A stretch of 64,000 nt of DNA from Leuctra nigra. Taxonomy: Eukaryota; Arthropoda; Insecta; Plecoptera; Leuctridae. The position numbers were made by a program, and so were the translations under genes. Below the pieces are notes generated by a model. That model did not search any database and was not told the origin of the DNA. It worked only from the letters and a program-made list of their open reading frames with translations. This document shows, piece after piece, positions 20,501-64,000 of the stretch (within the stretch, counting starts at the first letter, position 1; the number at the start of each line of letters is the position of its first letter). The stretch is from assembly GCA_934045905.1 (NCBI GenBank), contig OW203765.1, forward strand, positions 28,367,997 through 28,431,996, read 5' to 3'.

Positions 20501-23500
20501 CTCAAGATTCTCCTCACAAATCATACAATTCGCGATCATCGATTCCAAAGAATCAATCATAACTCTGAGCTGTGATCGATTCACGTACAAAGCCACCAAT
20601 CTCACGAAAACGGTTAAGTAATACAAGAAAATGATGGCGCTTTCTGTGATGTGAGTCACGTGTCCTTCTTGAATTGTAGAAACAATCGCTATTGTTTGTG
20701 CCATGAGGTTGTAGACAAGTTTCAAGGCCATCACTCGAGGAAAGAAATGGCGGATAAGATTGGTGATGTAGCGTGTACTTCTGTGGTCATCGTCCCACAT
20801 TCCTGAGAAAGTCAGAAAGTAGATTAAGTTGATTGCTTTTCTGGTTTTCTTCATAATTCTGTACCTTCAAAGGAAATGGTAAGAAGGGAATTTTCACGAT
20901 TTTTAGTTGCACACTTTTGGAATTGTGTAATCAAGCTCATTGACAAAAGTCCCCAATACAGTTATTCTATGTTATTCTAGTAATTCTATGAAACATATCT
21001 TTTCCTCAGAGATAGAATGGTGAAATTCTATTTCCTCGATTTTGCATCGCAAAAGTTCTCTAACTAGGTATTGCAATATTCTTTTGACACCATTTGGGTG
21101 CAGAATGTGTAAATGGTCGAACAAATTATAGCTCAAATTATACAAATGTAACAACTTCTAAAAATAACTAACGCTCACCTTTTCTGCAGATTTTTTTTTC
21201 CAAGATCTTAGCAATATTATGCAAGATGATAGAAATTTCTGGCAATATTACCATACTTATACTACCCTGCTGAAAACCGACTTAGGTAAATAGTATATTA
21301 TTCGACTTCCTCGAAATTATCCATCCCCATACTAGATCTATACTACCCTACTACCCTGCTGAAATTCTTGACAAGATCTTGTGAAGATTTTTCAGCAGGT
21401 TAGAGGTAGTCTAAAGGCTGAATTACAAGTTTCAAGTTTCCTTGAATTCAACCCTTTCAAGGGGGGTTGAATTCAAGACTTGGATCGTCTAAATGAAAAC
21501 ATTGAAGCATTCCAAGTCTTGAATTCAAGACATCTCTTCAGCCTTTTCAATTAGAACATGTCCTATTATCCTTCAAGTCTTGAAATACTTCAACAAATTG
21601 TTAATTTTACTGCAACATCAATCAACAAACATTAAAACATTAATTTTTCTCCTTCAAGTTTCCTTGAAATCAAGGTTTGAATTCAACCCCTTCAAGGAAA
21701 CTTGAACCGTGTAATTCAGGCTTAATACTACACTATTTGGCTAGGTGATGGTTGTAAAAAATACTCTTACCCAAGTAGTAAAGGGCAGTTATGTTGTAAC
21801 GAAGGCATGTGCGCTGTTTTTCATGCCCTTTATTACCACGAAAGCCCAAGATTTTAGAATTGTGGACCACAATCATGATGACTTTCCACCCAGAACTAAA
21901 ATATATACCGCTATGTGCGTCAAATGTAAATGTTCAAGGTTAAAATGATGAAATATACTTTAATGTTTGTAAAGAACTCTGCGATATTTATCAATCATAT
22001 ATTATTCCGGGATTGTCCAGTTCCAAGCTTTTATACCATTCGATAGGATAGCATTAACTTGTTATAAGTTTCTTCGAATACGTCTTACACGAGTATACAT
22101 ATTTACACAAACCTAACCGTGTCCAAAATAATCGATAGGTACATTTTATTGAGCGCAAAATATAATAGATTATTTGTGCACACAGAACCTACTTCGAACT
22201 TAAAGGTTTATCTTTCCTTTTCCGTTGATGTAAGTCTTTTATGACAGTTTTTCAAATGTCTAAATAAAGATTTCTATGTATTTTGCTGATTGCCCAATAA
22301 TATTGTATTTTGTTAAGTAAGGGCGCATGCAAACTACGAGTATAATGTATGAAACATGCAATAATCAGTAGGAAAAATATACATACCTAATCCATAAATA
22401 TGAGGGGGTACCCAAAAGTAACCGGAATTTGAACGTGGCGCTCAAAATATAAAAAGTAAAGAGTTTAGCTTCAGGACATACTGAGCTTATGGTGTTGTGA
22501 GCCAAACTGGCAAGTTTCAGATATCTATGTTGACCGAGACGCTTTTTATGCCATTTTTGGTACCCGTCTCCACTCGAACCCGGCGATTTTCCGCGATAAA
22601 TAAAAATAAAGAAAGGAAACCTTCTGATTTCTGATAGGTAAAACTGCAGCTGATTTTGTGTTTAAGCTTTAGATACTATTTAAAGCACTTGCTGAAAGTA
22701 AAATGCAAGTCAGAGAGTGTTTTCCCGTTTTTAAATGGCGACATGTCCTTTGAAGACCAAGCTTGACTTTGGTGAACTTTAACCAGCCAATGACGACTTT
22801 GGTTGTGATTTTTGAGATGATGACCGGGATTTTGCACTAAGAATTTGTTCCTGCTTGACGGACTGTGCATTAACAGTTACCATATTGAAGTTTTGAGAAG
22901 ATTGCATTACAATGTGGAAGAAAGTGGCCGGAAATGTGGTAAAGCAGTGACTGTTCGCTTCACCGTGATAACGCTGTAGCCCACACGGCTTAGGCCTCCT
23001 GCAGCTTTAGGCCTAAATCAATATGGCGGTTGTTCAGCATCAAGCCTAATAATTGAGCCTCGCTCTCTGTGACTTCATTTGACTACTGGTAAGAAAACAA
23101 TACATGAAACATTCTCGCGATGTTTTTCCCTAAATTTAATAAAAAATCGACGAGTTCGAGTTGAGACGAGTACCAAAAATGGCATAAAAACCGTCTCGGT
23201 CAATATAGAGGGGTAAAACTTGGCACTTAGACTCACAACACCATAGGCTCGATTTGCCCTGAAGCAAAACTCTTTACTTTTTATATTTTGAGCGCCACAT
23301 TTAAATTCCGGTTACTTTTGGGTACCCCCTCGTAGACAGTTTGTATGCAGTTGGAAGACCAAATTATTAAATGTGATCTCCCCCAGTGTTAGACGCCGGC
23401 GCCAAGCTGCCTGCCGGCTTGCTGACCGGCAACCTGGTGCTGCTGGGCAACTACACATGCACTAATCTTCCTGGTGATCTCCCCCAGTGTTAGACGCCGG

Positions 23501-26500
23501 CGCCAAGCTGCCTGCCGGCTTGCTGACCGGCAACCTGGTGCTGCTGGTCAACTACACATGCACTAATCTTCCTGGTGATCTCCCCCAGTGTTAGACGCCG
23601 GCGCCAAGCTGCCTGCCGGCTTGCTGACCGGCAACCTGGTCCTGCTGGGCAACTACACATGCACTAATCTTCCTGGTGATCTCCCCCAGTGTTAGACGCC
23701 GGCGCCAAGCTGCCTGCCGGCTTGCTGACCGGCAACCTGGTCCTGCTGGGCAACTACACATGCACTAATCTTCCTGGTGATCTCCCCCAGTGTTAGACGC
23801 CGGCGCCAAGCTGCCTGCCGGCTTGCTGACCGGCAACCTGGTGCTGCTGGGCAACTTCACATGCACTAATCTTCCTGGTGATCTCCCCCAGTGTTAGACG
23901 CCGGCGCCAAGCTTCCTGCCGGCTTGCTGACCGGCAACCTGGTGCTGCTGGGCAACTACACATGCACTAATCTTCCTGGTGATCTCCCCCAGTGTTAGAC
24001 GCCGGCGCCAAGCTGCCTGCCGGCTTGCTGACCGGCAACCTGGTGCTGCTGGGCAACTACACATGCACTAATCTTCCTGGTGATCTCCCCCAGTGTTGAC
24101 GCCGGCGCCAAGCTGCCTGCCGGCTTGCTGACCGGCAACCTGGTGCTGCTGGGCAACTACACATGCACTAATCTTCCTGGTGATCTCCCCCAGTGTTAGA
24201 CGCCGGCGCCAAGCTGCCTGCCGGCTTGCTGACCGGCAACCTGGTGCTGCTGGGCAACTACGACGAGTGTCTGGAGGCGCACGATGACGACGGCGAAGTC
24301 GCTGGACAACACTGCATGGTCTCTCTGGGACCGAAGTCCATCTTCTCGGCGTTGACGATAGACGAGAGGGCAAAATCATTTCCTGATTTAGCTGGATTTA
24401 CAACCATGTTGGACCAAATCAAATATGTAGGTCTACAAAGGATCTTTAATACTTACTGCTATTTACTTTTTCTTCCAATGCCTTTTTCACTCTCTTCTGA
24501 TTTACCTTGGCAATTTAGAAACACAATACGATTTAATTAATCGAAAATATCGATACCGGAAATATGTTAAAATGTACACGAATCTAGGATAAAACAGTGA
24601 AAGCCATATAAAATGGACCGTGATATTTCGCCCACGCATTCGGTCGACTTTGTCTGCTTTCTTATGCGAGACTGACAAAACAAAACCAAAACTAAACAAA
24701 ACAAACCTAACTGCTACCCTAAAATGACCCCTATTGATCAATCAACAGGTGAACTTGTCATACCCCCTTTCATCCCGCGTGTAAGCAAATCTCGCACAAC
24801 CGGCCGCACAATACTGCGCCATGAGTCATCGAAGAAATAACTCGGTTGGCTGATGATAATGTTTGTTTTCATTACACAAAATAAAGGCAGCTTCAACAAA
24901 TTGTTTTTATAAATTGCCACCACAGAATCCCAATTAAAATGATGCATATTCGAGCATACATGTTCAGCTACCACAGAAGAAGAAACTAGTTAGGTTTGTT
25001 TGGTTTGGTTTGGGTTTGTCTTGACAGTCTCGCCTGAGGTGGGATTCTATAACTCCATTGCGATTGCTTAGCAATTTCTTCCATAAGGATTAACATTGAA
25101 ATAATTGCTAAGCGGTCGCAATGGAGTTATAGAATCAGTGCCCTGAGCAAGCCAACCAGTGGCGTGCCGAACCTATCTTGAGGACCGGTGCTTATTCATT
25201 GATGGGTGTACCCACCCACCCCCAATGGTCAAGAACATAAAGTTGGCAGCGATCGCAATGGGGTCTGGGGAGAGGACCCCCTGGTAGGTACATGCAGGTC
25301 CGGGGTGCGAGCATAGCCTCGGAAAAAATTCAATTTCAATACCAACTTTGAAGGTTTTTGGTGGTGAATTATTTAAGTTTAAGCTCTGGGAAGTAATTAA
25401 TTTAATTATTAAACGGGTTGACCCCACACAAACGCCGCGCATCGTTTTTTTTTCTTCTTTTGGTTATAGACGGGTTTACAATAAGTTTACAGGCAGGCAC
25501 GATATTTTTGAAGGAAAACAGAACAGTCAGTATAATTTATATTAGAAATAAAATCAAACAAAAAATGCCGCGCAGCGAAATTTTGGGATTTTGACTACAT
25601 TAGAACGAGTTTCAAATGATTTTACAGGTACGACGATTTTGAAAGAAAACAGAAAATCCATTCATGTATAAAAATCACACATAAAAAAGGCGCGCAGCGA
25701 TTTTTTTTTTGGCTTCATTAGAATGGGTTTAAAATGATTTTACAGGTACCTACTAAGTATAATTTTGAAAGAGAACAAAAAAATGCATACATTAAAATGC
25801 CGCGCAGCGGATTTTTTGTATTTTGGCTACCTTAGGACGGGTTTAAAATGATATTACATTAGCAATAAAATCACACGTTTAAAATAGCCGCGCAGCGAAA
25901 ATTTTTGTTTTTGGCTACATCAGAACGGGTTTAAATGATTTAAGTGATTTAAATGATTTTGAAATGAATAAACAAAAACGCGATTTATTTATAAAAAGAA
26001 AAGCACACATTATAATGCGCTGCAGCGAATTTTTTGGTTTTCGTCTACCTAGGACAGGTTTAAAATGATTTTACATTATACTCTATTTTTTTAAGGAAAA
26101 CAGAAAAGTTCTTAATTTATATAGGTAAGTAATAAAATTATAAATAAAATAGCCGCGCAGCGAAACTTTTTGGTTTTGGCTACATTAAAACGGGTTTTAA
26201 ATGATTTTACAAGGTACTGTATTTTTGATAGAAAACAAAAAAAAAATGCGGCGCAGCTATTTTTTGTTTTTCAACTCTACATTAGCACACGTTTAAAATG
26301 GTTTTTCAGATAGGTACAATAATTGTGAATGATTATTTTTTGTATTAGGCTACCCAAGGGTGTATCCAGGATGAAATTTCGGGGGAGGGGGGGGGGGGGG
26401 GCCGACATTACTAATATTTTGAAAAATGACAGTCTAAAACAGGGGGTTCGGGGGCACAGCCCCCGAGAAAATTTTACATCAAGGTCATTCATTTAGGTGC

Positions 26501-29500: not shown

Positions 29501-32500
29501 ACTTATCTGATGAGGGAGAAGTCTTTGCTAAACTGAACCCTTCCAAGTGAAAATGTGTAGCTTTTTGGTTGAATAGTCACGTGATATACAGCCCCCTTAA
29601 GTAAGGTATCGTATCTTAAAATGTGTTTACTCTACAAATAACAACGGTTGCTACTCTCTTTAATTTTAATATACGATAATAGAGTGAAAATTCGTACAGG
29701 AATCACCCCCCTGGTTAATTGTATGAATATTTATCTTTTCAGATTCATCATAATGGTACTCGTGTTAGCTGTCATTTTGGGTACTTTTCAGGACCTTTGC
29801 CAACCGAATGAAGGTATGCATTGTAATTTATTTATTATACACCTTTCGTATGCACACTTAAATTCGAAAAAAGAAAAATGCTATTTGAGAGAAACGGAAT
29901 GGATGGAAAAGATTTGTCGGCACCATCGGAAATAGAGTCTGCTAACTCGTCATCTACCTCTAGTAGGTGGGCTCTGATTTCATTGATAATTACAAGGATT
30001 GATTGTCAAGTAACCTGACCAGCAGCCAATTCGTTTCTTCCCAATACCACTTTTCTCTCATCGAGTACGTACCACATGATGTCAATTTGTACCACTACTA
30101 GAGATAGTTGGTCTGCGAATCTATCAAAGAGAATGCTTATAACATGTTTGTTACATATTTATGGAAAAGCTAAAGAAAAGCTTGAACTAACTTATTATTA
30201 GAGCTAGGATGTTAAGGACATATCCATTTTTCAGTTTTGTTCAGACAAATCTAAAACTGATATATAAATATGTTACGTGTGTTCCTGATTTCAAAAATAT
30301 ATGTTTCATTTTGCCTGAAAATGCCTTTTTCACAAGTTTTGATAAATTCAGTCCTTTTCTTGCTATTTTAAGGTCTTTTTGTAATTTTTTCAATTATTGT
30401 GGAAAATAACATGAAATGTTTGTTGCAAGTTACAACAATTTTATGAATTTTGGTCTAGACCACAATTCATAAAATTTCCATCCACCATTTGGATGGCCAT
30501 CAACAATTGAAACTTGATACAGTAACACATTCATACAATAATTTAAGTTATTTTAATATATTTCTCCAAGTCTAACTCCTTAACCAATAAATCGAATAAT
30601 ATGTTGACAAAAATTACAGACCGTAAAATTTCATAGGTCCTAAACATACTAGCCCTACTCATTAGGTATATACGATTATTATGATTATTTTCTGTTGGCG
30701 AAATGATGCATGTTGCGCAGGCCCCCCGAGCAGCCGTCTGCTGACCGCATTCTCTGCGCGCAGCACTATAGGCAGTCTGCTGCGCGCGCAGCACGCCGCT
30801 GACGCCCTGCCCGCGCTGGACGGGATCCGAGTGCTGCGCATGGCGTACATAACACATGATGTTGTTGCGCAGGCCCCCCGAGCAGCCGTCTGCTGACCGC
30901 ATTCTCTGCGCGCAGCACTATAGGCAGTCTGCTGCGCGCGCAGCACGCCGCTGACGCCCTGCCCGCGCTGGACGGGATCCGAGTGCTGCGCATGGCGTAC
31001 ATTACACATGATGTTGTTGCGCAGGCCCCCCGAGCAGCCGTCTACTGACCGCATTCTCTGCGCGCAGCACTATAGGCAGTCTGCTGCGCGCGCAGCACGC
31101 CGCTGAGGCCCTGCCCGTGCTGGACGGGATCCGAGTGCTGCGCATGGCGTACATAACACATGATGTTGTTGCGCAGGCCCCCCGAGCAGCCGTCTGCTGA
31201 CCGCATTCTCTGCGCGCAGCACTATAGGCAGTCTGCTGCGCGCGCAGCACGCCGCTGACGCCCTGCCCGCGCTGGACGGGATCCGAGTGCTGCGCATGGC
31301 GTACATAACACATGATGTTGTTGCGCAGGCCCCCCGAGCAGCCGTCTGCTGACCGCATTCTCTGCGCGCAGCACTATAGGCAGTCTGCTGCGCGCGCAGC
31401 ACGCCGCTGACGCCCTGCCCGCGCTGGACGGGATCCGAGTGCTGCGCATGGCGTACATAACACATGATGTTGTTGCGCAGGCCCCCCGAGCAGCCGTCTG
31501 CTGACCGCATTGTCTGCGCGCAGCACTATAGGCATCTGCTGCGCGCGCAGCACGCCGCTGACGCCCTGCCCGCGCTGGACGGGATCTGAGTGCTGCGCAT
31601 GGCGTACATAACACATGATGTTGTTGCGCAGACCCCCCGAGCAGCCGTCTGCTGACCGCATTCTCTGCGCGCAGCACTATAGGCAGTCTGCTGCGCGCGC
31701 AGCACGCCGCTGACGCCCTGCCCGCGCTGGACGGGATCCGAGTGCTGCGCATGGCGTACATAACACATGATGTTGTTGCGCAGGCCCCCCGAGCAGCCGC
31801 CTGCTGACAGCATTCTCAGCGCGCAGCACTATAGGCAGTCTGCTGCGCGCGCAGCACGCCGCTGACGCCCTGCCCGCGCTGGACGGGATCCGAGTGCTGC
31901 GCATGGCGTACATAACACATGATGTTGTTGCGCAGGCCCCCCGAGCAGCCGCCTGCTGACCGCATTCTCTGCGCGCAGCACTATTGGCAGTCTGCTGCGC
32001 GCGCAGCACGCCGCTGACGCCCTGCCCGCGCTGGACGGGATCCGAGTGCTGAGCACCCTGTGGGTGATGCTGCTCCACCACTACTTGTTTAACATCTACA
32101 CCCCGCTAGCTGACCTTGAACAACTCAAGTCGGTGAGAAACAACTCTGTAAAGCGTAATGTTTGAAAATTGATCACTGTGCATCCCTATAAAAGGGTAGA
32201 AAGTAAAGGTTGATCATTCCACTCTTTTTATGGCGGCATAATATTTCATGACAAAAAAGCAGGACTTCTTCCCTAATACCCTATTTACACTAAGGATTCG
32301 ATCATAATCCAAAACCTCGATTGCAATCGAAAAAGTGTGTGAACTGAACCCAATCGAACTCGATCATGATCGAACTCTCGATTGAATTGTAAGAACGCAA
32401 TCGAAATCTGAATCATGATCGAACTCAAGGTCAAACAAAAGAAATCATGAATTTTGAAAACGAAAACTTACAAATGCTCTCTAATTGCATGTAACAAGCA

Positions 32501-38500: not shown

Positions 38501-41500
38501 AATCATTTGATGTTGCTGCTCCCCTCCATTTTAAGATGCCCTTATTTTGCATTGATCATTGCTACACTGGCATTAAATCCCGAAGTGTTATATCATACAA
38601 GATATGAGTTCAAGTCCCCATCTTCTAATCAGGCGCGTAGGAAGGGGGGGGGATGGGGGGATTATCCCCCCCACACTCGAGCAGGCTGACCCCCCATTCA
38701 CCATAAAAAAAACTACGTTTAGTGTCCAAAAATCACTTAAAAATTTTATAAATACTAAAAAAACGCCCTGCGGGGCAACAATTGGAGTGTTTTTTGCTTC
38801 AGTCCGTGCATTGAAAGCCCCAGAATCACTGGATTAAATTCTAAAAAACGCCCTGCGGGGCTTAGACTGATTCCGGGTATCGCAATCCTCCCCCATTATG
38901 AAAGTTGCTACTACGCGCCTGATCCTCTTCATGCATCTAAGTGATTGTTTACTTCCAGATGTATTCGGACTGGACTCACATGTTCTTCACTAATGGCGGT
39001 CTCTGCGTGGACTCGTTCCTTCTCATCAGTGGTCTTCTGCTCTCATACAACTTCCTCAAGGACAGAGCGAAGAACCTGCAGTTCAGTCTTCCACGATATT
39101 ATCTGCAGAGATACATCAGGTAACTGCAATACAGTAACAAGATTTGAGAAATGTTCGGATTATTTCAGGTTTATTTTTTAAAAACAAATTAAAATTAATA
39201 ATATTTTTTACCGAACAGATGTTTATTTGTAGAAAGGTATTTAGAAAACAATATGAAAGTGATATCAGTGATATCATACATTCTTATTAAAATTTTATAA
39301 TTTTTGTACACAGTTTTAGCCTCTTTGTATGACATTTGTTCAAAAAATATTTTATGAAACACCCGATAATAAAATAATCAGTTTACAATGTGTTTTAATT
39401 CTTTATTAGAATTATTTTTGTGTGATAAAATTCACTACTGGGACCCTTATTCTAGAACTGTTAAATTCCCAAATGCTAATCTATGTATCCGTGAATCGAG
39501 TTATATCAAAAAAAAAATGGGCAAATGTTCTAGAATAGGCCTCTTACCTGTATCATGCGGAATATCTCAAATTCTACAGGGAATAAAAGAGAGTGTGTTG
39601 AAATTGTAGCTATCATCATAACTTTTAACAATGTCTAGATTGACGCCGTCGTAGGCCCTGGTCGTGTTGCTGACGGCGACGTTGTTCAAGTACGGTCTGG
39701 ACGGCCCGTACGTCAAGGCCAACACTGTGGACGTGCAGAGAGGTCGTTAACAGTAACTCTAAACATTGTCTAGATTGACGCCGTCGTACGCACTGGTCGT
39801 GCTGCTGAGGGCGACGCTGTTCAAGTACGGTCTGAATGGTCTGTACGTCTAGGCCAACACTGTGGACGTGCAGAGAGGTCGTTAAGCTCTCAGTAACTCT
39901 ATAACAATGTCTAGATTGACGCCGTCGTACGCCCTGGTCGTGCTGCTGACGGCGACGCTGTTCAAGTACGGTCTGGACGGCCCGTACGTCAAGGCCAACA
40001 CTGTGGACGTGCAGAGAGGTCGTTAAGCTCTCAGTAACTCTATAACAATGTCTAGATTGACGCCGTCGTACGCCCTGGTCGTGCTGCTGACGGCGACGTT
40101 GTTCAAGTACGGTCTGGACGGCCCGTACGTCAAGGCCAACACTGTGGACGTGCAGAGAGGTCCTTAAGCTCTCAGTAACTCTATAACAATGTCTAGATTG
40201 ACGCCGTCGTACGCCCTGGTCGTGCTGCTGACGGCGACGCTGTTCAAGTACGGTCTGGACGGCCCGTACGTCAAGGCCAACACTGTGGACGTGCAGAGAG
40301 GTCGTTAAGCTCTCAGTAACTCTATAACAATGTCTAGATTGACGCCGTCGTACGCCCTGGTCGTGCTGCTGAGGGCGACGCTGTTCAAGTACGGTCTGGA
40401 CGGTCCGTACGTCAAGGCCAACACTGTGGACGTGCAGAGACGTCGTTAAGCTCTCAGTAACTCTAAACAATGTCTAGATTGACACCGTCGTACGCACTGG
40501 TCGTGCTGCTGACGGCGACGTTGTTCAAGTACGGTCTGGATGGCCCGTACGTCAAGGCCAACACTGTGGACGTGCAAAAGGCGTGCAGAGAGGTCGGCTG
40601 GATGGGGATGCTGTATCTCAACAACTATCTGGACACGGAGCGCAAGGTACATGCTTCACTCTTAGCAAGAGACGAGGAAATTCAAGACATTCACAGTGTG
40701 AAGATTGATGTGACAAGTTTATGGTTTTTAAATAACATGTTTGACGTTTTAAAATTATTCCTTTGTGGACCATGAAATTAAAAATGTGTCGGGTTAAAAG
40801 ATTATACCTATCAGGGCCCAGATTAACAACGGTTTTCCTCCGGGGAATTGAAAGTTTGGTTCTACAAGCAGTGAAAGAAAGAGTTTTATTTTAAAACCCT
40901 CGGGGGGAAAAGCTGTGTAAATCCGGATCCAAGTGTATCGGTTCTGCAGTTACAAGAAATGGATCTTTGTCACAATTGTTCCTTGTTTAGGGCACTCAAT
41001 ACGTAGTACTCAATTATTTCAACAAATATTTCAATCTTTCCAAATTCAAGGAGAGTCTAGAAAGATATTTGGTTAACTTCGCCAATTTGTGTATCTGCAT
41101 TATAATTGGTTTTTCCACATCCCAACTATAACGTTTCAGAGTGCAATTGTCTGTGTTTTGTATCTGCTAGCTTGAAGTTGAAATAAGTTCATGTTACGCT
41201 GTTCCAGTGTGTGGCTGTAGGTTGGTACCTCGGAGTCGACATGCAGCTGTTCTGGCTTTCACCTCTGATTCTCTACCCGCTCTGGAGGTAAGTTGCATCT
41301 GTAGACAAGAAACATGAGAACAAAATGCATCAAGTGTCTGAGAGTGTCACCACGATGACGAAAATCACATATGATTGATGGCTCTCCAAAATACAGGGTT
41401 GACTATTGAGGTCCAGTTTACTAATCAATGCATTAAAATTTGATAAATAGTTAATACTGAACTAATACTGTACTACTAAAGTAAGTTTTACTTACCCCGG

Positions 41501-42221: not shown

Positions 42222-42257
<36 letters not shown>

Positions 42258-48839: not shown

Positions 48840-51800
48840 CTGAAACAAAAATTAATTTATATCAAATTAAAATTAATTACATATGCTTTTAGGGACAGTT
48901 TTTCAATGCTAAGTTAAATTTAAACAGATGACTAAGACTATTACCATGGCAACAACCAATGACATGCCTTGAATTGCCACCATAATTTGACTATTGGTTT
49001 CAACAAAGCATTGAAAAACTGGCCCAAGAGTTAAAAAGCTATTTTTTTTTACAAAAGATAATATTTTTAATACATCAATGTTCAGCCTTTGGACGACGTA
49101 CAGTAAGGTTAGTGACGCAAGAATGATTATAATAATGCGAGGAAGACAATGATGAAGATAAGGTTGGGATTGGTGGGAAGACGGCGTCGTGGACTGTATG
49201 TAGGAAACCGTCCAGCATTAGATTCTCGACCGCTAGACTTCAGTCAGGATTCAGGAAGGACGATTCAGGATTCAGGATCAAGTGTGCCATGTAAAGTGTT
49301 ACCTGCACGGAGGGCGGGGTGCTGATGACGTAGACGATGGAGTCGGCAACCTCCTCGGAGCTCAGGTGAGGGTTCTTGTCGTAGGGGGTGTAGTCACCCT
49401 CCACCGCCACCCCCGCCGCGATCATGATGTCGGTCTTTACGTGGCCGGGGCTCAAACTCTGCACGACAAATCAGAGGATGTACGAGGGGAAACATGACAT
49501 TGAACCAGGATGTAATGTTTTTAATGAGCGTATAACAATCGTTACTATGGTCGGTGACAGGCAAAGATGAACCCTGTTTAACATGACCAGGTATAGGCCG
49601 GCCCATGCTAGCGCGGGTTCATCTTTGCCTGTCACCGACCATATGGTGTTTCGCGTGGTCTGTTCGTTAATGATCTCCCAATCGATCTACACTTTTGCTC
49701 ATATCAAATCTGTACGTCAATTTCAATTATTCTTGAGATACGCTCAACAACCAGTATTTCTGGGCTAATCCAATCATATTTATAATGAGTGACACGAGTA
49801 ATTTTGAGAGAGAATACTTAAATATTATTTGTTGGCATCAGTCAAATCGCAATTGATAAAGCATGATTCATAATGCCAAAAAAGTTTCAAATTATAACTT
49901 CCGACTTCTACCTCTGAGGTACAGAAATGTTCATCCTGTTGTAAGAGTCGTTAACATGATGAGGAACTCACCGTGACCTTGATCCTGGACTTCATCCTGA
50001 CGAGTTCCCTGCGCAGGTTCTCCGTGAGCGCCGTGAGCGCGTGTTTACTTGCGCAGTACATGCCAGGCGCAGGTCCGTCAGTGACGCGGTGCCCGCAGAT
50101 GCTGCGCACAGAACAGACAGTTATTCTCAGATATACTAGTCAGATGCTCATCGCTCAGTGAACACATTGACAAGCAAGCCGTCGAAATGTATGACGGCTT
50201 TTCCTTCAGATTATCCGTCAGTCCGTCAGTGATGTAAACACTATACATCAATTTTCCGGTGAAACTAAGAGACGATCTCGCTAGAAATCAATATGTTAAC
50301 GAACATGATAGTAATGAAACTAGAGTTAAAAAATTGGCCTGATCCAATACTTTGTTCGACCTAGCGAAAAGATCACATCTCCTGCGCTCGCTCAATGAGG
50401 GCATTTGGCTTGACATCATCCCCGCATTGTTGATGTGTTACCACGTGACCTACCTGTTAATGTGGATGATGTGTCCGTCATCGACTCCACGCTCTCGCAT
50501 CCTCTTCAACGCCTCCCTCGTGCACAGGCTCAGACCGATGATGTGTCATACCCCGTGACCTACCTGTTGATGTGGATGATGTGTCCGTCATCGACTCCAC
50601 GCTCTCGCATCCTCTTCAACGCCTCCCGCGTGCACATGCTCAGACCGATGATGTTCACGTCGAACACGTCGCGCCAGTACTCCGTCTTCCCGTGTCCGCC
50701 TGCAAACAAAATCCAACAATAAGTACACAAGAATCCTCGATTAAAACTGTCTAATATGTCAGCAAGAGAGTCAGCCTTTCCAATTTGATACATATTTGAA
50801 AGAGTTGATAATTCTCGCAAAAAAAATCGATTCGGATAAAAAAATCTAGAAATGCATGAAAAGGCATTAACTCTGGGGTTTACGTGACATTTGTGACATT
50901 AAATCGTGTGTTGCATGTATCATGTAGAAAATTTTGATTCGGATAAAAAAATCTAGAAATGCATTAAAAAATGCATTAGCTCTGGGTTTTACGTGACATT
51001 TGAGACATTTAATCGTGTGTTGCATGTTGCATATACTGATGCGAAGAACGTTATTTTAATTCAAATATTGAAAACCACAAAAAACCATAAAAAGGCGGCC
51101 CCTACTTTTTTCTTAGCGGCTTGACCGATTGTCTTCAAAATTTAGCAGCATAGAGATAAAGAGTAAATCTGTGTCTCTAGTGATTCAACAAAATAAAAAA
51201 ATAAAAATCTCGTGTTGATAGGAGGTACAATATATTAGGTGGGCAATATATGAGTATTTTAGGCACCTCTGTCTTGAAAATACTAAACAAAAAATAAAAC
51301 TGTTTGGCCACTTTAGACACATATCTACTCTCTATCTATAATCTGTGAAAATTTGAAGACAATCGGTCAAACCGTTCAGAAAAAAGTAGGGGCCGCCTTT
51401 TTGTGCTTCATAAAATATGGCTTTCATCAAGACTCATTTGCCGCGACAGAATGCAAAACCGTCGACGTATTTTGAACAATGTTCCAATGGCATTGCATCA
51501 TCGCCGTCCCAAAGGGTGTGTCCCGACTTACTCGCAAGCTCCATGTCGGTGTGGACGACGCCGGCGTTGTTGACGAGCACGTCGACGCCGCCGAGGTTGG
51601 CGTTGATCCAGGCGAAGGCGGCGAGGACGTCGGCCTCCACACGGATGTCGCACTTGACGGCGTGGAGTTTGCCGGGGAAGTCCGACAGTTCGGCTTTCAT
51701 TGCCTAGAGAGACAGATTGTGCAATGAATAACATTTAAGGCGATTCGACCGAAAAAAATCAATATTAATTTTCTTCATATTTCGTAAGAGGGAGCTGGTA

Positions 51801-53837
51801 ACATAATTGATTTCAAGTGACATTAGTCGGTTTTGGGCGCCACAAAAAATTCCGGGACGTTTTCAAATGTGTAAAATGCACGTTACTTTAGTCCACTCAT
51901 AGACAAAACCGTTTATCTAAATGACACGAAACTTGCAGAGAATATTCATTAGATATCTAGTTATGGGCTGACGGTCCCCTTTTTCTAATTTTTTGTTTCA
52001 ATTTTTACAAAAAAAATATACAACGTACCGGATTTTAGAGTAAAATATTACTGATTTAGTAGAAGCTACAGTCAAAGTAGGAATGAAGTTATCGAAATTT
52101 GGGGGCCGTCATGACATCCGCCGATTCTTTGTGAACAAAATGAGCCCTCGTGTAAGTCTGTAGTGTGAATGGTAGGGCTTGTGGCGTGGCGATAGTAAAT
52201 GTTTATTTTCATAAATAAAAAAGTCAAAATTTTATGGTACAACAATAATGTGTCAAAAAAGATACAGTGAGTTGTAAAATCACTACCTGTAGGAGAAAAA
52301 TACCCTCCCGACTCTTTGAGTGCAGTAGTTACGCCAATAACGTGATTTATATTTTTAGTCACGTGGTATCGCTCGAATCGCGTTAAAGAATGACAGATGA
52401 TATCGTCACGGACCAGCTTTCAACTTCATCCAAACTTCAAGATTTTTAGACATTTACAGAGACTTTTACCATGAAATTAATCGTTGCTCTCTAAGAATAC
52501 GACAGTGTTTTGTAACTATAAGAAAACGCTCTAACGTGTTGATAAGCGAGCTTTCGTATTGAATGCAAATTGAAATGCGTTTGCAAATGCTGTTCTACAG
52601 ACCTTGAGCCGAAACGAATTGCGTCAAAGAAGCAGTGATAAAATATCTGATATTTCCTTCAAGAAATTTGACAAATATTTCCAAACACGCATAGAATGTC
52701 CGTAAAATTGCCAATAACTTTTGAAGCGACAGATTAGTCCGAAAATTGCCAAAAAAACATAAAATATTGGTTGCCTCCACTTGGTTTACCTCCACTCTGT
52801 CACGACGACGAGCCACGCCGACCACAACCATCCCCTTGCGCACCAACTCCTTGACAAGGGCGGCGCCTATCCCTGCACTGGCGCCAGTCACCATGAGGTA
52901 TTGTAACTATCCCGACTCACCTCCACTCTGTCGGGACGACGAGCCACGCCGACCACAACCATCCCCTTGCGCACCAGCTCCTTGACAAGGGCGGCGCCAT
53001 CCCTGCACTGGCGCCAGTCACCATGAGGTATTGTAACTATCCCGACTCACCTCCACTCTGTCAGGACGACGAGCCACGCCGACCACAACCATCCCCTTGC
53101 GCACCAACTCCTTGACAAGGGCGGCGCCTATCCCTGCACTGGCGCCAGTCACCATGAGGTATTGTAACTATCCCGACTCACCTCCACTCTGTCAGGACGA
53201 CGAGCCACGCCGACCACAACCATCCCCTTGCGCACCAACTCCTTGACAAGGGCGGCGCCTATCCCTGCACTGGTGCCAGTCACCATGAGGTATTGTAACT
53301 ATCCCGACTCACCTCCACTCTGTCGGGACGACGAGCCACGCCGACCACTACCATCCCCTTGCGCACCAGCTCCTTGACAAGGGCGGCGCCTATCCCTGCA
53401 CTGGCGCCAGTCACCATGAGGTATTGTAACTATCCCGACTCACCTCCACTCTGTCAGGACGACGAGCCACGCCGACCACTACCATCCCCTTGCGCACCAA
53501 CTCCTTGACAAGGGCGGCGCCTATCCCTGCACTGGCGCCAGTCACCATGAAGTATTGTAACTATCCCGACTCACCTCCACTCTGTCCGGACGACGAGCCA
53601 CGCCGACCACTACCATCCCCTTGCGCACCAACTCCTTGACAAGGGCGGCGCCTATCCCTGCACTGGCGCCAGTCACCATGAAGTATTGTAACTATCCCGA
53701 CTCACCTCCACTCTGTCCGGACGACGAGCCACGCCGACCACTACCATCCCCTTGCGCACCAACTCCTTGACAAGGGCGGCGCCTATCCCTGCACTGGCGC
53801 CAGTCACCATAACGACACGTCCTGCCCAGCGTTCCAT
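48798..53837 (-). CDS. SDR-family dehydrogenase/reductase, DHRS11-like
   Basis: Exons in order: 53706-53837, 51532-51703, 50564-50699, 49972-50101, 49303-49458, 48798-48839; all GT-AG, in phase, 255 aa as usual for classical SDRs. The nucleotide-binding glycine motif is VTGASAGIGAALV, followed by VLVNNAGVVH, the catalytic Ser in HIIHINSICGH and the catalytic Tyr/Lys in MYCASKHALTAL, then SPGHVKTD. So every catalytic element is present. Insect relatives include farnesol dehydrogenases and other NADP-dependent alcohol/ketone oxidoreductases; the substrate cannot be told. Exon 1 and exon 3 have tandem donor arrays. No signal peptide, so probably cytosolic. Confidence 0.9.
48892..49024. mobile_element. 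Mini-MITE
   Basis: Ends GGGACAGTTTTTCAATGC and GCATTGAAAAACTGGCCC, with CATGGCAACAACCAATGAC in the middle. In intron 5 of the SDR gene. Confidence 0.7.
49303..49458 (-). CDS. SDR gene, exon 5
   Basis: SLSPGHVKTDIMIAAGVAVE, then LSSEEVADSIVYVISTPPSVQ: the conserved PG segment and substrate loop. Acceptor GTGCAG, donor GTAACA. Confidence 0.9.
49547..49642. repeat. Hairpin-forming inverted repeat, 28-bp arms
   Basis: ATGGTCGGTGACAGGCAAAG and its exact inverse are about 40 bp apart, in SDR intron 4. Confidence 0.85.
49972..50101 (-). CDS. SDR gene, exon 4 (active site Tyr/Lys)
   Basis: ICGHRVTDGPAPGMYCASKH, then ALTALTENLRRELVRMKSRI. YxxxK is present. Acceptor TGCGCAG, donor GTGAGT. Confidence 0.9.
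50102..50425. other. SDR intron 3
   Basis: About 320 bp plus the array segment; repeat fragment near 50340-50400 (AAAATTGGCCTGATCCAATAC) also seen near 520. No gene. Confidence 0.4.
50426..50675 (-). repeat. Array 5: two-copy duplication of the SDR exon 3 donor region, 110-bp period
   Basis: The exon 3 end, its donor (GTAGGT in the true exon) and about 24 bp of intron are repeated once downstream (50426-50541). The second copy differs by a few bases. This is the shortest array of its kind here. Confidence 0.85.
50564..50699 (-). CDS. SDR gene, exon 3
   Basis: GHGKTEYWRDVFDVNIIGLS, then TREALKRMRERGVDDGHIIH. Acceptor TTTGCAG, donor GTAGGT; the split codon AG/C gives the catalytic Ser. Confidence 0.9.
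50822..51035. repeat. Direct duplication, about 115-bp period
   Basis: Two near-identical copies of the block TTCGGATAAAAAAATCTAGA ... TTTAATCGTGTGTTGCATGT. Within SDR intron 2. Confidence 0.75.
51090..51402. mobile_element. Foldback MITE
   Basis: Ends AAAGGCGGCCCCTACTTTTT and exact inverse; the arms continue through TTGACCGATTGTCTTCAAA. In SDR intron 2. Confidence 0.8.
51532..51703 (-). CDS. SDR gene, exon 2
   Basis: AMKAELSDFPGKLHAVKCDI, then RVEADVLAAFAWINANLGG and VDVLVNNAGVVHTDMELA. Acceptor TCTCTAG, donor GTAAGT. Confidence 0.9.
51734..52388. mobile_element. Possible TTAA-flanked element
   Basis: TTAAGGCGATTCGACC at the left and the approximate inverse GCTCGAATCGCGTTAA at the right. 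Imperfect and tentative. In SDR intron 1. Confidence 0.35.
52521..52785 (-). mobile_element. CTAG-family repeat fragment
   Basis: Terminal motif AGAAAACGCTCTAACGTGTT and family interior (AAATTGCCAATAACTTTTG). It abuts array 6. Confidence 0.5.
52786..53705 (-). repeat. Array 6: seven extra copies of the SDR exon 1 donor region, 131-bp period
   Basis: Each unit starts at codon 10 of exon 1 (ATGGTGACTGGCGCC), runs to ...GACAGAGTGGAG, the donor GTGAGTCGGG and about 26 bp of intron. The first nine codons are never copied, but the internal ATG always is. Copies differ at a few sites (GTCGTGGTC / GTAGTGGTC; CCGGAC / CCTGAC). One unit lacks a base. Confidence 0.95.
53706..53837 (-). CDS. SDR gene, exon 1
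   Basis: ATG at 53837: MERWAGRVVMVTGASAGIGA, then ALVKELVRKGMVVVGVARR. Donor GTGAGT. Source copy of array 6. Confidence 0.9.
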
Positions 53838-54706
53838 GTTGCTTGTGATGTCTGGAACAACGGAGTTGATACTTTATATACGAGTGATCATCGGTTCTTA
53901 TTTTGTGATGTCAGCTAATCGGCTTGGACATCTGATCAAGTTGATTGAGTGGACCAGACAACTTTGTAATTATGGGGATTAAAGTTAGATTGATAGTCGT
54001 AGTTGTGCAAGATAGTGCTACAGTATAGCAGTGTTACTTTACAGTTATTTGTTCAAAATTCAGCTTCAGTTTCTGGGGGTTCAAAGTTAAACCGATACAA
54101 AATATCGAAATAAAAGTACGTTTTAAATAATCGAATATAATGCACTGGGTATAATGATTTAATATTCTTGGAACTACACTAGGAAGTAGATTTTGGAACA
54201 AGGTTTTAATTGTTTGACTTTTTCTTGAGTACTGGTGTAGTTCAAAGATTTTTTATTAAAAGTATCAGTGCTAAGTTACAGTTACTTGAATATTAGCAGC
54301 AGTTACATTCTTAGTTATATTATAAATTTGCAAAAACTATGGGTAATTCTTATTTCTTACGTAAGAAGTGATTGAATTTCGTGGGTGATTGATACATTTC
54401 ACAGCTGAGGACAACAGATGCGTCTAATAGAGGTGTTTTAGAAATCTGATTTGAGTTCTACCTCTTTTACAGAATGTGTCATTTCAATTTTTCAGGGGCG
54501 AATAAAATATATCATGTTAAATTTCAGTAGTTACTCAAAATTGTAACTGTCTAAAAGTTACAGTTACTACTTTCTAAAAATGAAAAGTAATTACAATAAT
54601 AAATACTTCGTTTTTAAAGTGACATATTGTTACGGATACATTTACTCGAAACAATTAGCATGTTACTTTGTATCACTTTACTACAAAAGACTGTAATGTG
54701 ATACGG
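53838..54706. other. SDR upstream region, unassigned
   Basis: Should hold the SDR promoter. The rest is AT-rich with repeated short motifs (TTACAGTTACT) near 54030-54570; no gene. Confidence 0.4.
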
Positions 54707-54986
54707 AACATGTTGGCTGAGTGGTAACGCTCTGAACTTGTATTCCGGAGGCCCGGGTTCGATTTTCGCGGCCGTCCTTCCTAACTGGGTTTTTTCGTGG
54801 TTTTTCCTCAGTCGACAGGCTAATGCTGGGAAGGTACCCTACTAATAGGCCACGACCGCCTCCTTCCCACCTTCCATCCTTACCTACTCTTCACCATCAT
54901 CTCCCAATCATCCTCATAATCATTCATCCGTCGCCATTAGCCTCGCTGCAGAACAGTGCAACGTTAAGCCCCAGACAAAAACAAAT
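54707..54986 (+). mobile_element. tRNA-derived SINE, copy 2
   Basis: About 95% like the copy at 1668-1950 and the same orientation; A box TGGCTGAGTGG, B box GGTTCGATTTT (decayed), end AAGCCCCAGACAAAAACAAA. Confidence 0.85.
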
Positions 54987-55609
54987 GTGATAATGTGCAG
55001 ATAAGAGTATCAGTAAGGATCAGGGAGGATTAGTGAATCAGTGAGTCGTGGTGTTTTTATGAACTAGATCGATTGGTGCAGTTGAACAAGTAATAAATCA
55101 TTATTGCATAATCTGACGAAAATTAGGTTGCCTTAATTGACAGGTCTAGAAAACTTTAATTTGCTGCAACTCATCACTCACGTTTGTTTGACAATTATAA
55201 GACCATTGTCACAACATCAATACATTACTCTGGAGGTCAAAATTATTTCATTTTATGAAATATGTTTAAGTAATGCCATTATTTAGTCTGACTTGCTACG
55301 TTGGCTAACTTCGATTACTGAAGCACATATTGGTTCAAATCATTAACTTTATTATCATTAAAAATGCATATCAAATCCTATCAATTGAAATACAGGTTTT
55401 GTACTATAATATTAAACCACCAACCGCAAGCACTTAATTATAAAATTATATATATTAATAATAAAATGTTCAATATTTATATGCGATATTTATATTGATT
55501 TGAAGCATGTTCTCTTCTATCATGAGTCCAATTATGTCGAAATTGTATCGAAGGATCCAAAAGAAGTCCATGGACATTTTTCCTATCTACGAGGGGGGTG
55601 GGGGGGGGG
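54987..55609. other. Intergenic, no gene seen
   Basis: AT-rich; a G-rich run at 55592-55613 begins the next element. Confidence 0.4.
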
Positions 55610-59944: not shown

Positions 59945-62900
59945 CTGAAACAAAATCGTATCTTCTTTCAAAACTAATGTCACTCTTTCTTCTGTGTGCT
60001 GTTCTTACCATTTGCAGACCAAAAGAAACAAATCAAATCACAAAAGATTTATTACTATCCAGTTTGTTAGCCTGTTGATTTCCAGCAGGATCCGTCACTT
60101 GGTTTTACCGAAAAATTGGTTGGTATGATAAATATTTTATGAGGTTTGTTTCTTCAACTATCATCCGAACTTACTACTAGGAAAACGCTCTGAGTAACGC
60201 GTTGATGAGCGAGCACGGATACGCGCAACACCTCAAACCAAAATTCTGTCTATCGAAAATGTAGGTAATTAAAAGCCAATAATTCTTGAATTTCGTCACA
60301 GACTTGTATGAAAATCTCAAAAAATTCCTAAAATATTTGTCCAATAACCATGCAAAGTTTTAAGGTGCTGCAAGCGCAAGCGATTTTGCTGCCTTTTGTA
60401 GACACTTTTTGCGATACGATTGGAGACGAAATGGGTGGACCAAATAATTTGAAATTTTAATCGTGATTAGATAAACGACAAACTTAGGGTTATCCCTTGG
60501 TACATTTTTAATTTTTTGTCTCGTTAATTAGTAATAATTAGTGGATTTTTTGTGAAAAATTAGCTATTTTCTCGTCTCGCTGGGGGCCGTATAAAATTAA
60601 ATTTCAAAAATGTGCCAAGGGATAACCCTAAGTTTGTCTTTCATCTAATCATGATTAAAATTTGAGATCAATTGGTTTACGGGTTTGGTCTCCAATCGTA
60701 TCGCAAATTTCATCGTTTTGCGCGGTTTTGTTGAATAACCGGCGCCTAATTAACGATGCAATAAGCAAAAATTTAAAAGGGCTACTAATATACAATCGGA
60801 CTGATCATGTAAACATCCTGTATAAGTTACACTCACTTATGAAACAATTTTTCTATCTCAATTTTCTAAAACGGCCGAGCGCTAGTATCACCTTAAGTTG
60901 ATCGATTGAACCTTTATGATTGTTAATTTTCAAAAATCGTAGGGTCTCGTTCAAAAAATATACCTGGGACCACTCACACAATATCAGATCAAACTGTTGA
61001 ACGGTCATTATTATTAATTAATTTCATATGAGATTGAAAGTTTCTGCTCCAACTACCTTGGATTAGAACTGAAGAGTCGAAGTCGCCGTGAAATATGAAA
61101 TTCAAGAAATTTGACAGCAAACACGCAAAATGTCCGTAAACTATCAATAACTTTTAGATTTAAACACAGATTAGTTGTCAAAAATACAGATAATGCTGGT
61201 CCCAATAACCATGCAAAGTTTTATGTTGATCGGTCAAACGGGTCTAGTTAAAATTTCAAAAAACACAGGAATAATGGTTTTAAATTTTAACCAATGGGAG
61301 GATTTGGCTGAAACTTTTTTTGATTGGGTACAATGTTGGTTGCAATGACTTCGCTAAATTTCAAATTGATCGGACCAACCAATCGAAAGATAATTTTTTT
61401 GAAATTTGAACCAATCACAGGATTCCTTTCAAAAACGATCCCAGAGACCGCATAGATTACGTTAGTATGTGTGCAAAATTTAAGATCGATTGGTTAGACA
61501 GTTTGACCTGGGCAGTGCAGGCAAAAAATCAAACAAAAAAAAAAAAAAACACACACACAGAGAAAGTGCCATAAGAGTACCGTGGTGACGCTCGCTACGC
61601 TCGCTCAATAAATAGAGAAATTGTGGGGCGCTCGGCCGTTGGAGCAAATTGAGAGAGTTATGTTTCATAAGTTGGTGTAACTTTGATAGGATGTTCACAT
61701 GATCAATCTGATTGTATATTAGTAGAACTTTATTATTTATGATTCGTGCCAATTGTATAGGCGCCGTTATTCAACAAAACCGCACAAAACTATGAAATTT
61801 CGGATACGGGAGACCAAACCCGTTAACCAAATGATCTCAAAATTTCCAAGTGTGCTGTTCAAGAATGAACGGAAATAACATATGGCTGTTAAGGCAATGT
61901 TATGGGTGAGTAAGAGAACCGTTCGTACTATAAAATGACGTAATGAAGTCCATGAATCTTGCTTACATTGTCCTTGACGATGACTCCTGTCAGTATCGGA
62001 CCGAAAAGTGAGAATATGGTTGCTATGGTTCCTGAGATGCCGTACATGGTCCCTGCGAAGTTTGGTGCCAAGTCGATGCTGTTGATGTTGAAGCCAACGA
62101 ACACGCCGGCCAATGTGCCGAGCGACGCGCAAAGCAGGACGGTGGCAACAGTCGGGTCTGTTGCGAAGGCCAGCCCGATCAGTCCAGCAGCAGACAAGAA
62201 GGTACCTACAAGCAAGCAGGACGGTTGCAAGAGTCTGGTCCGTTGCGAACTACAGCCCGATCAGTCCAGCAGCAGATAAGAAGATACCTACAAGCAAGCA
62301 GGACGGTGGCAAGAGTCTGGTCCGTTGCGAAGGACAGCCCGATCAGTCCAGCAGCAGACAAGAAGGTACCTACAAGCAAGCAGGACGGTGGCAACAGTCG
62401 GATCCGTTGCGAAGGCCAGCCCGATCAGTCCAGCAGCAGACAAGAAGGTACCTACAAGCAAGCAGGACGGTGGCAACAGTCGGGTCCGTTGCGAAGGACA
62501 GCCCGATCAGTCCAGCAGCAGACAAGAAGGTACCTACAAGCAAGCAGGACGGTGGCAACAGTCGGGTCCGTTGCGAACTACAGCCCGATCAGTCCAGCAG
62601 CAGATAAGAAGATACCTACAAGCAAGCAGGACGGTGGCAAGAGTCTGGTCCGTTGCGAAGGACAGCCCGATCAGTCCAGCAGCAGACAAGAAGGTACCTA
62701 CAAGCAAGCAGGACGGTGGCAACAGTCGGGTCCGTTGCGAAGGACAGCCCGATCAGTCCAGCAGCAGACAAGAAGGTACCTACAAGCAAGCAGGACGGTG
62801 GCAACAGTCGGGTCCGTTGCGAAGGACAGTCTGATCAGTCCAGCAGCAGACAAGAAGGTACCTACAAGCAAGCAGGACGGTGGCAACAGTAGGGTCCGTT

Positions 62901-64000
62901 GCGAAGGACAGCCCGATCAGTCCAGCAGCAGACAAGAAGGTACCTACAACAAGCCTACGCTACAAGCAACACTTTTAGACACTGTTGGGACACAAATTAA
63001 TTTTGCATGTATTATAAGCACACTCAATGCTTTGTGGGGCATTCTGGGGGTAGACGGATTGGTTCCTCTCAAAGAACAACTATTAGACTTGCACCGGCGA
63101 TGAAATCCGTTTCAATCTTACCTGAACACTGGAATAGTTTTCTTGAAGTGCGCGTCGACAAAAGCTTCTTCCTCTGAATGACGTCAGATGCGACGCCGCA
63201 GATGATTGACACAATGAAGGTCGTCAAGTAGGGAAGCGCAGAGAGAAATCCACTCTGAAACAAGATGGAGAATATAGGTTGCGTGTGATGGATGTTGTTC
63301 GTTCATTCGTTACAAGAAGGTGGGATGTTTGCTGCTCACTTGGTTGTCGAATTACAGTGTGAATTGCAGCGATTGTTTTTTATGATTGCAATGATTGAAT
63401 AATTACGACAAACAATTACAGTCACATTAACAATAATTATAGTTTCAGTACCCAATCGCAACGCGAATTACCTAGTGGCAGACATATCGTAATAGAATTT
63501 CTCAACCTTAATGTTGACATATTAGCCCGAAAAGTTCATGTTTCAAAACTGCAAATTGAATCTGTAGTTTGTATAATTCCTGGACATTTATTGAAAAACC
63601 CTTGCGGTTGGCAACACTATTTGCTTTGCCTTGCTACCCTTTAATTAACGACTATAAAAGAACGCTCCGCCCACTGATACGTGACCAAATGGCGGGAAAA
63701 TGATTGTGGGCCAGAGTCAGTTCGGTTGATGCACAAATCGTTGCGCTACCTACCGAGCTTAGATTGAAACCCAGCACGAACTTCATGAAGGTCGGGATCT
63801 CTGTGAGCAGCGTCCAGTAGCCCCAAGCCAGCTCCATGTAGGCAACGATGATCGCCCACATGGCTGGTGACGTACTTACCGAGCTTAGATTAAACCCCAG
63901 CACGAACTTCATGAAGGTCGGGATCTCTGTGAGCAGCGTCCAGTAGCCCCAAGCCAGCCCCATGTAGGCAACGATGATCGCCCACATGGCTGGTGACGTA
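59759..64000 (-). CDS. SLC17-like anion cotransporter (MFS), 3' part
   Basis: Exons seen: 63754 onward (array, upstream part outside the window), 63122-63254, 61967-62205, 59759-59944, ending TAA at 59759. The phase is consistent. Helix and loop segments: SPAMWAIIVAYMGLAWGYWT, TFMKFVLGFNLSS/SGFLSALPYL, FIVSIICGVASDVI, NINSIDLAPNFAGTMYGISG and WRIVFFIAAGVDIVAG. These match the second half of sialin/putative inorganic phosphate cotransporters, which move organic or inorganic anions with Na+ or H+. The NxxSIDLAPNFAGTMYGI block is characteristic. A hydrophilic tail ends GDKSNGNSTRL. Substrate not determinable. Two exons bear tandem arrays. Confidence 0.85.
60177..61608 (-). mobile_element. CTAG-ending dispersed repeat with nested MITE
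   Basis: Ends TAGGAAAACGCTCTGAGTAA and GCTACGCTCGCTCAAT; about 900 bp after removing the MITE at 60364-60892. Includes A-rich and (AC)n blocks near 61530-61560. Confidence 0.6.
60364..60892. mobile_element. TTAA-target MITE nested in another repeat
   Basis: Ends GGTGCTGCAAGCGCAAGCG and GCGCTAGTATCACC; TTAA on both sides (60360-60363, 60893-60896). The host repeat reads through when it is removed. Confidence 0.85.
61626..61850. mobile_element. TTAA-type MITE, truncated
   Basis: GGCGCTCGGCCGTTGGAGCA... to GACCAAACCCGTTAACC: the left half of the family only. Confidence 0.65.
61967..62205 (-). CDS. SLC17-like gene, penultimate exon
   Basis: TFLSAAGLIGLAFATDPTVA, then VLLCASLGTLAGVFVGFNIN, SIDLAPNFAGTMYGISG and ILTGVIVKDN. 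Acceptor TTGTAG, donor GTAAGC. Terminal copy of array 7. Confidence 0.9.
62206..62950 (-). repeat. Array 7: about nine extra copies of an SLC17 acceptor region, 82-bp period
   Basis: In coding sense each unit reads from the acceptor TTGCTTGTAG through 72 bp of exon (GTACCTTCTTGTCTGCTGC...) and joins the next acceptor at CTGCTT, a short homology with the exon's CTGCTTTGCG. Variants (GGACAG/GGCCAG/ACTACAG; GGTACC/GATACC) alternate. Period not a multiple of three. Confidence 0.95.
62951..63121. other. SLC17 intron remainder
   Basis: Short intronic sequence between array 7 and the upstream exon. Nothing notable. Confidence 0.4.
63122..63254 (-). CDS. SLC17-like gene, internal exon
   Basis: SGFLSALPYLTTFIVSIICG, then VASDVIQRKKLLSTRTSRKL. 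133 bp, acceptor TTTCAG, donor GTAAGA. The conserved N-G/S-x-LSALPYL region of SLC17 proteins. Confidence 0.9.
63255..63753. other. SLC17 intron, no gene seen
   Basis: About 500 bp AT-rich intron. No element recognised. Confidence 0.4.
63754..64000 (-). repeat. Array 8: repeated SLC17 exon 3' end, 126-bp period, leaves the window
   Basis: At least two copies of a unit holding about 119 bp of exon (SPAMWAIIVAYM to FNLSS), a donor (GTAGGT in the inner copy, GTAAGT in the outer) and a few intron bases. The period is a multiple of three and the junction reads VST in frame, so both copies form one open frame. The window edge falls at the start of a third unit. Confidence 0.9.

Follow-up and report, generated by a model that had tools for sequence, protein, structure and literature searches.

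The analyzed window, a 64,000 nt stretch of the Leuctra nigra genome (assembly GCA_934045905.1, contig OW203765.1, positions 28,367,997 to 28,431,996 of the forward strand), contains eight tandem arrays located on exon/intron boundaries of three genes, namely an NRF-6-like gene, a short-chain dehydrogenase/reductase (SDR) gene and an SLC17-like gene. The arrays are probably minisatellites of the type described in amphioxus as mirages, present here in an insect genome and hidden from the protein by splicing. Using Tandem Repeats Finder (TRF), the eight arrays were detected within 41 kb, with unit lengths of 82–152 bp, 2–23 copies and matches of 94–98% within the arrays. Anchoring on the splice sites resulted in a total number of 70 units (9, 9, 7, 23, 2, 8, 10 and 2 for the arrays A1 to A8, respectively; Table 1).

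Each unit contains one exon/intron boundary, and its AG or GT dinucleotide is intact in 70 of 70 units. The exon part of the unit ranges between 62 and 119 bp and the remainder, determined by subtraction, between 7 and 43 bp, where the 43 bp of A3 include approximately 10 bp of exon located past a deletion. Four arrays multiply acceptors and four multiply donors. This anatomy, which can be read directly from the sequence, agrees with a preliminary description of the stretch, in which eight splice-boundary arrays in three genes, one splice site per unit and equal numbers of acceptors and donors had been reported. Unit length and sequence are distinct at each locus, and the unit length is not divisible by three in six of the eight arrays. 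The arrays are located on 8 of the 19 modelled exons, none of which is seen to carry an array at both ends (the A8 exon leaves the window). For this one window, the proportion suggests a high rate of array formation in the genome.

Reading frame and splice site usage

For each unit, the exon resulting from the use of that unit's splice site was analyzed for its reading frame. An open in-frame exon results from 7 of the 68 sites in A1 to A7, which coincide exactly with the sites attached to the exon. All of the other sites (61 of 61) fail by a frame shift and/or a stop codon, leaving one usable site in each of the seven arrays. Since only the exon-attached site is open, splicing must use this site in A1 to A7 if the proteins are made, and the additional copies would then be removed together with the intron. 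In A8 (126 bp, two units visible) both units are open in frame.

For the four arrays of the NRF-6-like gene, tblastn yielded repeated matches to one segment that occurs in the protein a single time; of these copies, the one attached to the exon is the only one to continue into the remaining exon. Differences private to the exon-attached copy were found to be synonymous in 7 cases and amino-acid changing in 2 cases (P = 0.003), the latter two being located in two-copy arrays, where the change may have occurred in either copy.

Comparison with known boundary repeats

In the preliminary description, no described process was thought to account for tandem amplification at splice junctions. This does not hold, as tandem repeats of exon/intron boundaries are already known as mirages in amphioxus (PMC3087553, PMC3902484). 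The amphioxus loci comprise Adh, the globins BflGb6 and BflGb9, TnC and PGBD5 (PMC3087553, PMC3902484), of which the PGBD5 mirage was added and TnC was cited by the later paper (PMC3902484). Both boundary types are affected in the globin mirages, for which reverse transcription polymerase chain reaction suggested normal splicing; the same work put forward a model of how introns are gained (PMC3087553).

Mirages and the arrays of the window are alike in that the unit crosses the 5′ or 3′ boundary of an exon, a single authentic copy adjoins the exon and the units vary among themselves (PMC3087553, PMC3902484). The boundary lies inside the repeat unit in all units of the eight arrays, acceptors as well as donors are affected, and a single authentic exon-continuous copy with the others off-frame was found in seven of eight arrays, A8 being cut by the window. 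AG/GT is kept in many of the amphioxus units compared to all 70 here, and the unit lengths of 10–72, 60, 108 and 150–160 bp in amphioxus (PMC3087553, PMC3902484) compare to 82–152 bp in this study. The host differs, being an insect with polyneopteran-like protein matches and not a cephalochordate, and so does the density, with eight arrays in 41 kb, 8 of the 19 modelled exons affected and copy numbers reaching 23. For amphioxus, splicing has been reported to be normal and copy numbers to be unstable, whereas the present arrays are represented by the DNA sequence of one haplotype. No insect mirage was found among the papers listed in a literature search covering few subscription papers, which is weak evidence of absence. 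As far as found, mirages have so far been described solely in lancelets.

Two further systems are related. Internal tandem repeats in human segmental duplications likewise alter the exon/intron structure by minisatellite expansion, with a mean unit of approximately 30 bp, 4 repeats and half of the cases in coding sequence (PMC2812944), whereas in seven of the present arrays a single copy is compatible with the frame. Repeats at exon-intron boundaries were said to permit novel introns (De Grassi and Ciccarelli, 2009; PMC2812944). In Drosophila, the gain of introns through tandem duplication also involves local duplication with splice-like sequence; there, a duplicated exonic proto-splice site makes a new intron (PMC2891723), whereas the arrays of the window multiply boundaries that already exist, and a new intron is not in evidence.

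Sequence variation and history of the arrays

Where both original flanks are readable, microhomology at the unit junction was identified by eye in A5 (6 nt), A7 (approximately 4 nt, with one base uncertain) and A4 (1 nt). In A1, A2, A3 and A6, a part of the unit's intron piece has no counterpart or only a poor match in the flank, and thus the outer end would have been rewritten or filler inserted. All six inner copies of A3 are devoid of 11 bp retained by the exon. This loss apparently occurred between two GTGCA repeats and, being common to the inner copies, suggests that the array was founded by one altered copy.

A minor variant shared by at least two copies was found in 20 columns across six arrays. 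In A3, A4, A6 and A7 such variants occur in non-adjacent copies, which points to copying between units. The outer end copy is farther from the interior copies than these are from one another in A3, A4 and A6 but not in A1, A2 and A7; A5 and A8 have too few copies for this comparison. Three 1-nt indels were detected, all of them in inner copies and none in the exon-attached copies.

Higher-order repeat structure was also considered as a proof of array history. A4 contains a recurring four-copy block (permutation P = 0.13; lag test P = 0.11), in A7 the lag test gave P = 0.047 and the block test found nothing, and neither test was significant for A1, A2, A3 and A6. This structure does not serve as a proof here.

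It is very unlikely that the exon edges were multiplied by an assembly or sequencing artefact, even if the arrays are known here from one assembled sequence alone and a mirage region was misassembled in one amphioxus draft haplotype (PMC3087553). The shared minor variants, including those in non-adjacent copies, the confinement of the three 1-nt indels to inner copies, the locus-specific unit lengths and sequences, and the fact that all 19 modelled exons (3,104 nt) are open in at least one frame argue against such an origin.

GC content and placement of the arrays

Exon edges were compared with respect to the GC content of the exon side, using 35 of 38 exon ends; the start-codon end of SDR exon 1, the window end of the A8 exon and the stop-codon end of the last SLC17 exon were omitted. 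Arrays are located on 8 of 24 edges with a GC content of at least 0.55 and on 0 of 11 edges below this value (Fisher P = 0.037). The recurrent local amplification on GC-rich exon edges proposed in the preliminary description is supported.

If eight such segments are placed at random, the probability that all eight span one exon edge is 3e-8. Restricting the placements to a GC content of at least 0.55 raises it to 0.003, and half of the random sets then touch exons in all eight cases. When placements wholly inside an exon or crossing several edges were dropped in addition, the probability for the gene region (23–64 kb) was 0.24. With the GC limit applied and purely exonic placements removed, a process targeting junctions is therefore not required.

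Tandem duplication is also found elsewhere in the window. An AT-rich tandem duplication with two copies (87% identity, 107 bp spacing), which TRF detected as well, is located in an SDR intron at 50821-51035, and degenerate AT-rich repeats with several copies (62–76%, spacing approximately 100–140 bp) in an intron of the NRF-6-like gene at 25469-26312. At 2916-3135, outside the three gene models, two AT-rich copies of approximately 98 bp with a spacing of 122 bp are 92% identical. These three tandem duplications away from modelled exons have a GC content of 0.25–0.33 and are two-copy or decayed. The eight arrays, all of which are on edges, do not represent the whole of the tandem duplication in the window.

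From these observations we infer the following course of events, which extends to the enzymology of duplication, selective loss and splicing. A GC-rich stretch of 82–152 bp would first have been duplicated in tandem, with a microhomology of 1–6 nt in the three arrays whose two flanks are readable, and then have expanded and in part been homogenised through unequal exchange or slippage. Although tandem duplication also takes place elsewhere in the window, long arrays of nearly identical units have developed here only from GC-rich stretches that overlap an exon. An array located within an exon would in most cases shift the frame, as six of the eight unit lengths are not divisible by three, and be lost. 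One that crosses an exon edge would survive, since splicing to the exon-attached site would remove the extra copies with the intron.

Evaluation of the interpretation and alternatives

Several results weigh against mirage-type arrays that are junk hidden by splicing. The chief one is a deficit of amino-acid changes in the inner copies, where 25 of 49 events change an amino acid compared to a neutral expectation of 33.0 (P = 0.011; P = 0.002 under a simpler model); for singletons alone the ratio is 16 of 29 compared to 19.6 expected (P = 0.10). The three inner copies with 1-nt indels are omitted from these substitution counts. The inner copies may have been re-copied from the coding unit or may formerly have been coding, and the deficit could stem from the coding unit having been copied repeatedly. 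A stop codon or one-base deletion was found in 10 of 62 inner copies and in 0 of 8 copies at the exon-side end, where that of A8 is merely the copy nearest the window end, and this contrast is not significant (Fisher P = 0.59). Lesions were therefore set aside as evidence of selection, and the frame analysis bears the argument instead. Furthermore, a clean single duplication is not demonstrated for A1, A2, A3 and A6.

The role of GC content is affected as well. The threshold of 0.55 is post hoc and corresponds approximately to the lowest GC content among the units. At lower thresholds the filtered probability for the gene region decreases to 0.026 (at least 0.50) and 0.0028 (at least 0.45). 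For the whole window, computed with the genes left of 23 kb outside the exon models, it is 0.027 (at least 0.55) and 0.0022 (at least 0.50). As this excess persists at laxer thresholds and in the whole window, some edge preference beyond GC content and the frame filter may exist. Exons carrying arrays do not differ from the other exons in whole-exon GC content (P = 0.35), and GC-rich stretches without arrays are present beyond the modelled exons.

These numbers bear on a junction-directed process, in which the exon edge itself (the end of an R-loop, a GC step, the co-transcriptional spliceosome or a nucleosome edge) would break or stall the DNA and multiply the edge. A targeting of the junction or GC step had been suggested in the preliminary description; it is possible in view of the excess at laxer GC limits, but not required at the strictest one. 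All eight arrays are at an edge, with a probability of 0.003 at a GC content of at least 0.55 without selection and of 0.023 if a minimum of 50 nt of exon is required, and part of the excess outlasts the filter with GC limits of 0.50 or 0.45 or for the whole window (0.0022–0.027 at the two higher thresholds). Such a process is nonetheless unlikely, since the frame filter accounts for the excess at a GC content of at least 0.55 in the gene region, tandem duplications occur away from modelled exons too and 27 of 35 testable exon edges have no array.

DNA folding gave no hairpin signal in favor of a junction-directed process either. The z-scores, each based on 60 approximate dinucleotide shuffles, do not differ between the 8 units and 27 other exon edges (Mann-Whitney P = 0.43), and on these grounds hairpin-driven expansion was rejected. 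The minimum free energy per base differs only weakly between the two groups (P = 0.065); the GC content differs (P = 0.006). The exons N11 and X4 were 1–2 nt off at one end in the tests of folding, whole-exon GC content, at least 50 nt of exon and BLAST, and exact in the edge counts and the GC-filtered placements. That exon edges are recurrently multiplied genome-wide in this insect lineage, perhaps at many GC-rich exons, by an edge-favoring process beyond GC content and selection is doubtful, though conceivable.

The arrays could also be functional, either as splice-site arrays kept for the tuning of splicing or as a stage at which introns or exons are actively being gained. The 70 intact splice dinucleotides, the shortage of amino-acid changes in the inner copies, the open frame of A8 and the intron gain proposed for the amphioxus globins (PMC3087553) fit to this explanation, but it is most improbable, since 61 of 61 alternative sites of A1 to A7 break the protein and intact dinucleotides are expected anyway in young arrays. 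In addition, a BLAST search of the window with the 19 exons and 60-bp flanks (E < 0.01) found no decayed copy of an exon edge outside its own locus and the arrays, and hence no trace of older gained introns. Joining the modelled exons requires no extra intron. Mirage-type arrays that would be removed with the intron are the preferred interpretation.

Host genes and exon models

The host genes were assigned by Pfam, which identified the NRF and Acyl_transf_3 domains in the NRF-6-like gene and adh_short in the SDR gene. For the SLC17-like gene the Pfam match to MFS_1 is weak and below the cut-off, and its identity was settled by PDB chains of sialin and the vesicular glutamate transporter. The SDR assignment is supported by PDB chains as well (including ARPG836, farnesol dehydrogenase), and PDB alignments back the exon parts of the SDR and SLC17 arrays. 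Using the NRF-6 proteins of Blattella and Anabrus, tblastn matched exons 2, 5, 6, 7, 8 and 10 and weakly exons 3 and 11. For exons 4 and 9, which tblastn did not match, the placement relies on reading frames and splice signals.

The top four of 25 matches to the NRF-6-like protein are from Blattella germanica (at most 42% identity) and Anabrus simplex, after which come an unnamed sequence and a beetle. Among the best 120 of 7995 SDR matches, the stick insects, termites and cockroaches Timema, Cryptotermes, Periplaneta, Zootermopsis, Blattella and Bacillus rossius prevail, and some beetles, a mosquito, leafhoppers and a mayfly are also found. The insect genera dominating the matches to both proteins belong to the Polyneoptera, and the matches indicate an insect host, probably a polyneopteran.

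Table 1. Positions of the tandem arrays and of the exons holding the exon-attached copies in the window.
Feature	Position	Strand	Description	Evidence
Array A1	23373..24261	+	101 bp x 8.8 (9 units), acceptor of NRF-6-like exon 2	TRF, anchors, tblastn
Array A2	30703..32055	+	152 bp x 8.9 (9 units), acceptor of NRF-6-like exon 5	TRF, anchors, tblastn
Array A3	39619..40576	+	~141 bp x 6.9 (7 units), acceptor of NRF-6-like exon 7	TRF, anchors
Array A4	43228..45114	+	82 bp x 23, donor of NRF-6-like exon 10	TRF, anchors
Array A5	50431..50654	-	110 bp x 2.1 (2 units), donor of SDR exon 3	TRF, anchors
Array A6	52788..53810	-	131 bp x 7.8 (8 units), donor of SDR exon 1	TRF, anchors
Array A7	62132..62954	-	82 bp x 10, acceptor in SLC17-like gene	TRF, anchors
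Array A8	63747..64000	-	126 bp, at least 2 units, donor in SLC17-like gene; continues past window	TRF, anchors
NRF-6-like exon 2	24194..24426	+	Holds exon-attached A1 copy	AG/GT ends; sole open in-frame acceptor of 9
NRF-6-like exon 5	31936..32132	+	Holds exon-attached A2 copy	tblastn, splice ends, frame test
NRF-6-like exon 7	40478..40646	+	Holds exon-attached A3 copy	tblastn, splice ends, frame test
NRF-6-like exon 10	42982..43289	+	Holds exon-attached A4 copy	tblastn, splice ends, frame test
SDR exon 3	50564..50699	-	Holds exon-attached A5 copy	PDB alignment, splice ends, frame test
SDR exon 1, coding part	53706..53837	-	Holds exon-attached A6 copy	PDB alignment, splice ends, frame test
SLC17-like exon	61967..62205	-	Holds exon-attached A7 copy	Sialin/vesicular glutamate transporter alignment, splice ends, frame test

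Other repeats and features of the window

A CATCGT hexanucleotide repeat of approximately 10 copies is located just downstream of NRF-6-like exon 9 (42222-42283). An intron of the same gene contains a reverse-transcriptase fragment at 34518-35066 (Pfam RVT_1, E = 6e-10), which is probably a retrotransposon remnant. A dispersed repeat family, likely a mobile element, was identified at 37145-37383, 45488-45596 and 60549-60787. The first and the last of these copies are 86% identical over 239 bp, and both are 78–79% alike to the copy at 45488. The reading-frame translations of 1642-1881 and 54676-54987 are very similar, and the two are likely copies of one mobile element. Two direct copies of approximately 373 bp (87% identity, spacing 1021 bp) were found at 17295-18687.

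Two related, AT-rich open frames without long arrays are located at 11518-12024 and 20372-20866 (both on the minus strand). Pfam assigned no family to the former and gave only a weak zf-BED match for the latter. Both seem to resemble fragments of insect odorant receptors. RNA families (at the gathering score) and tRNAs were not found in the window.

Significance

The presence of eight mirages within 41 kb of insect DNA would suggest that such arrays can originate wherever GC-rich exons adjoin AT-rich introns and duplication is frequent. Extra copies of this kind could pass for exons, which has to be considered in gene annotation. The arrays provide a natural test of how the spliceosome chooses among nearly identical sites, of which there are up to 23. 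They likewise allow one to ask whether the duplication of boundaries, as a possible raw material for new introns, feeds intron gain. If the multiplication of exon edges were indeed genome-wide, it would represent a standing supply of duplicated splice sites for the origin of introns and exons, independent of that in lancelets.

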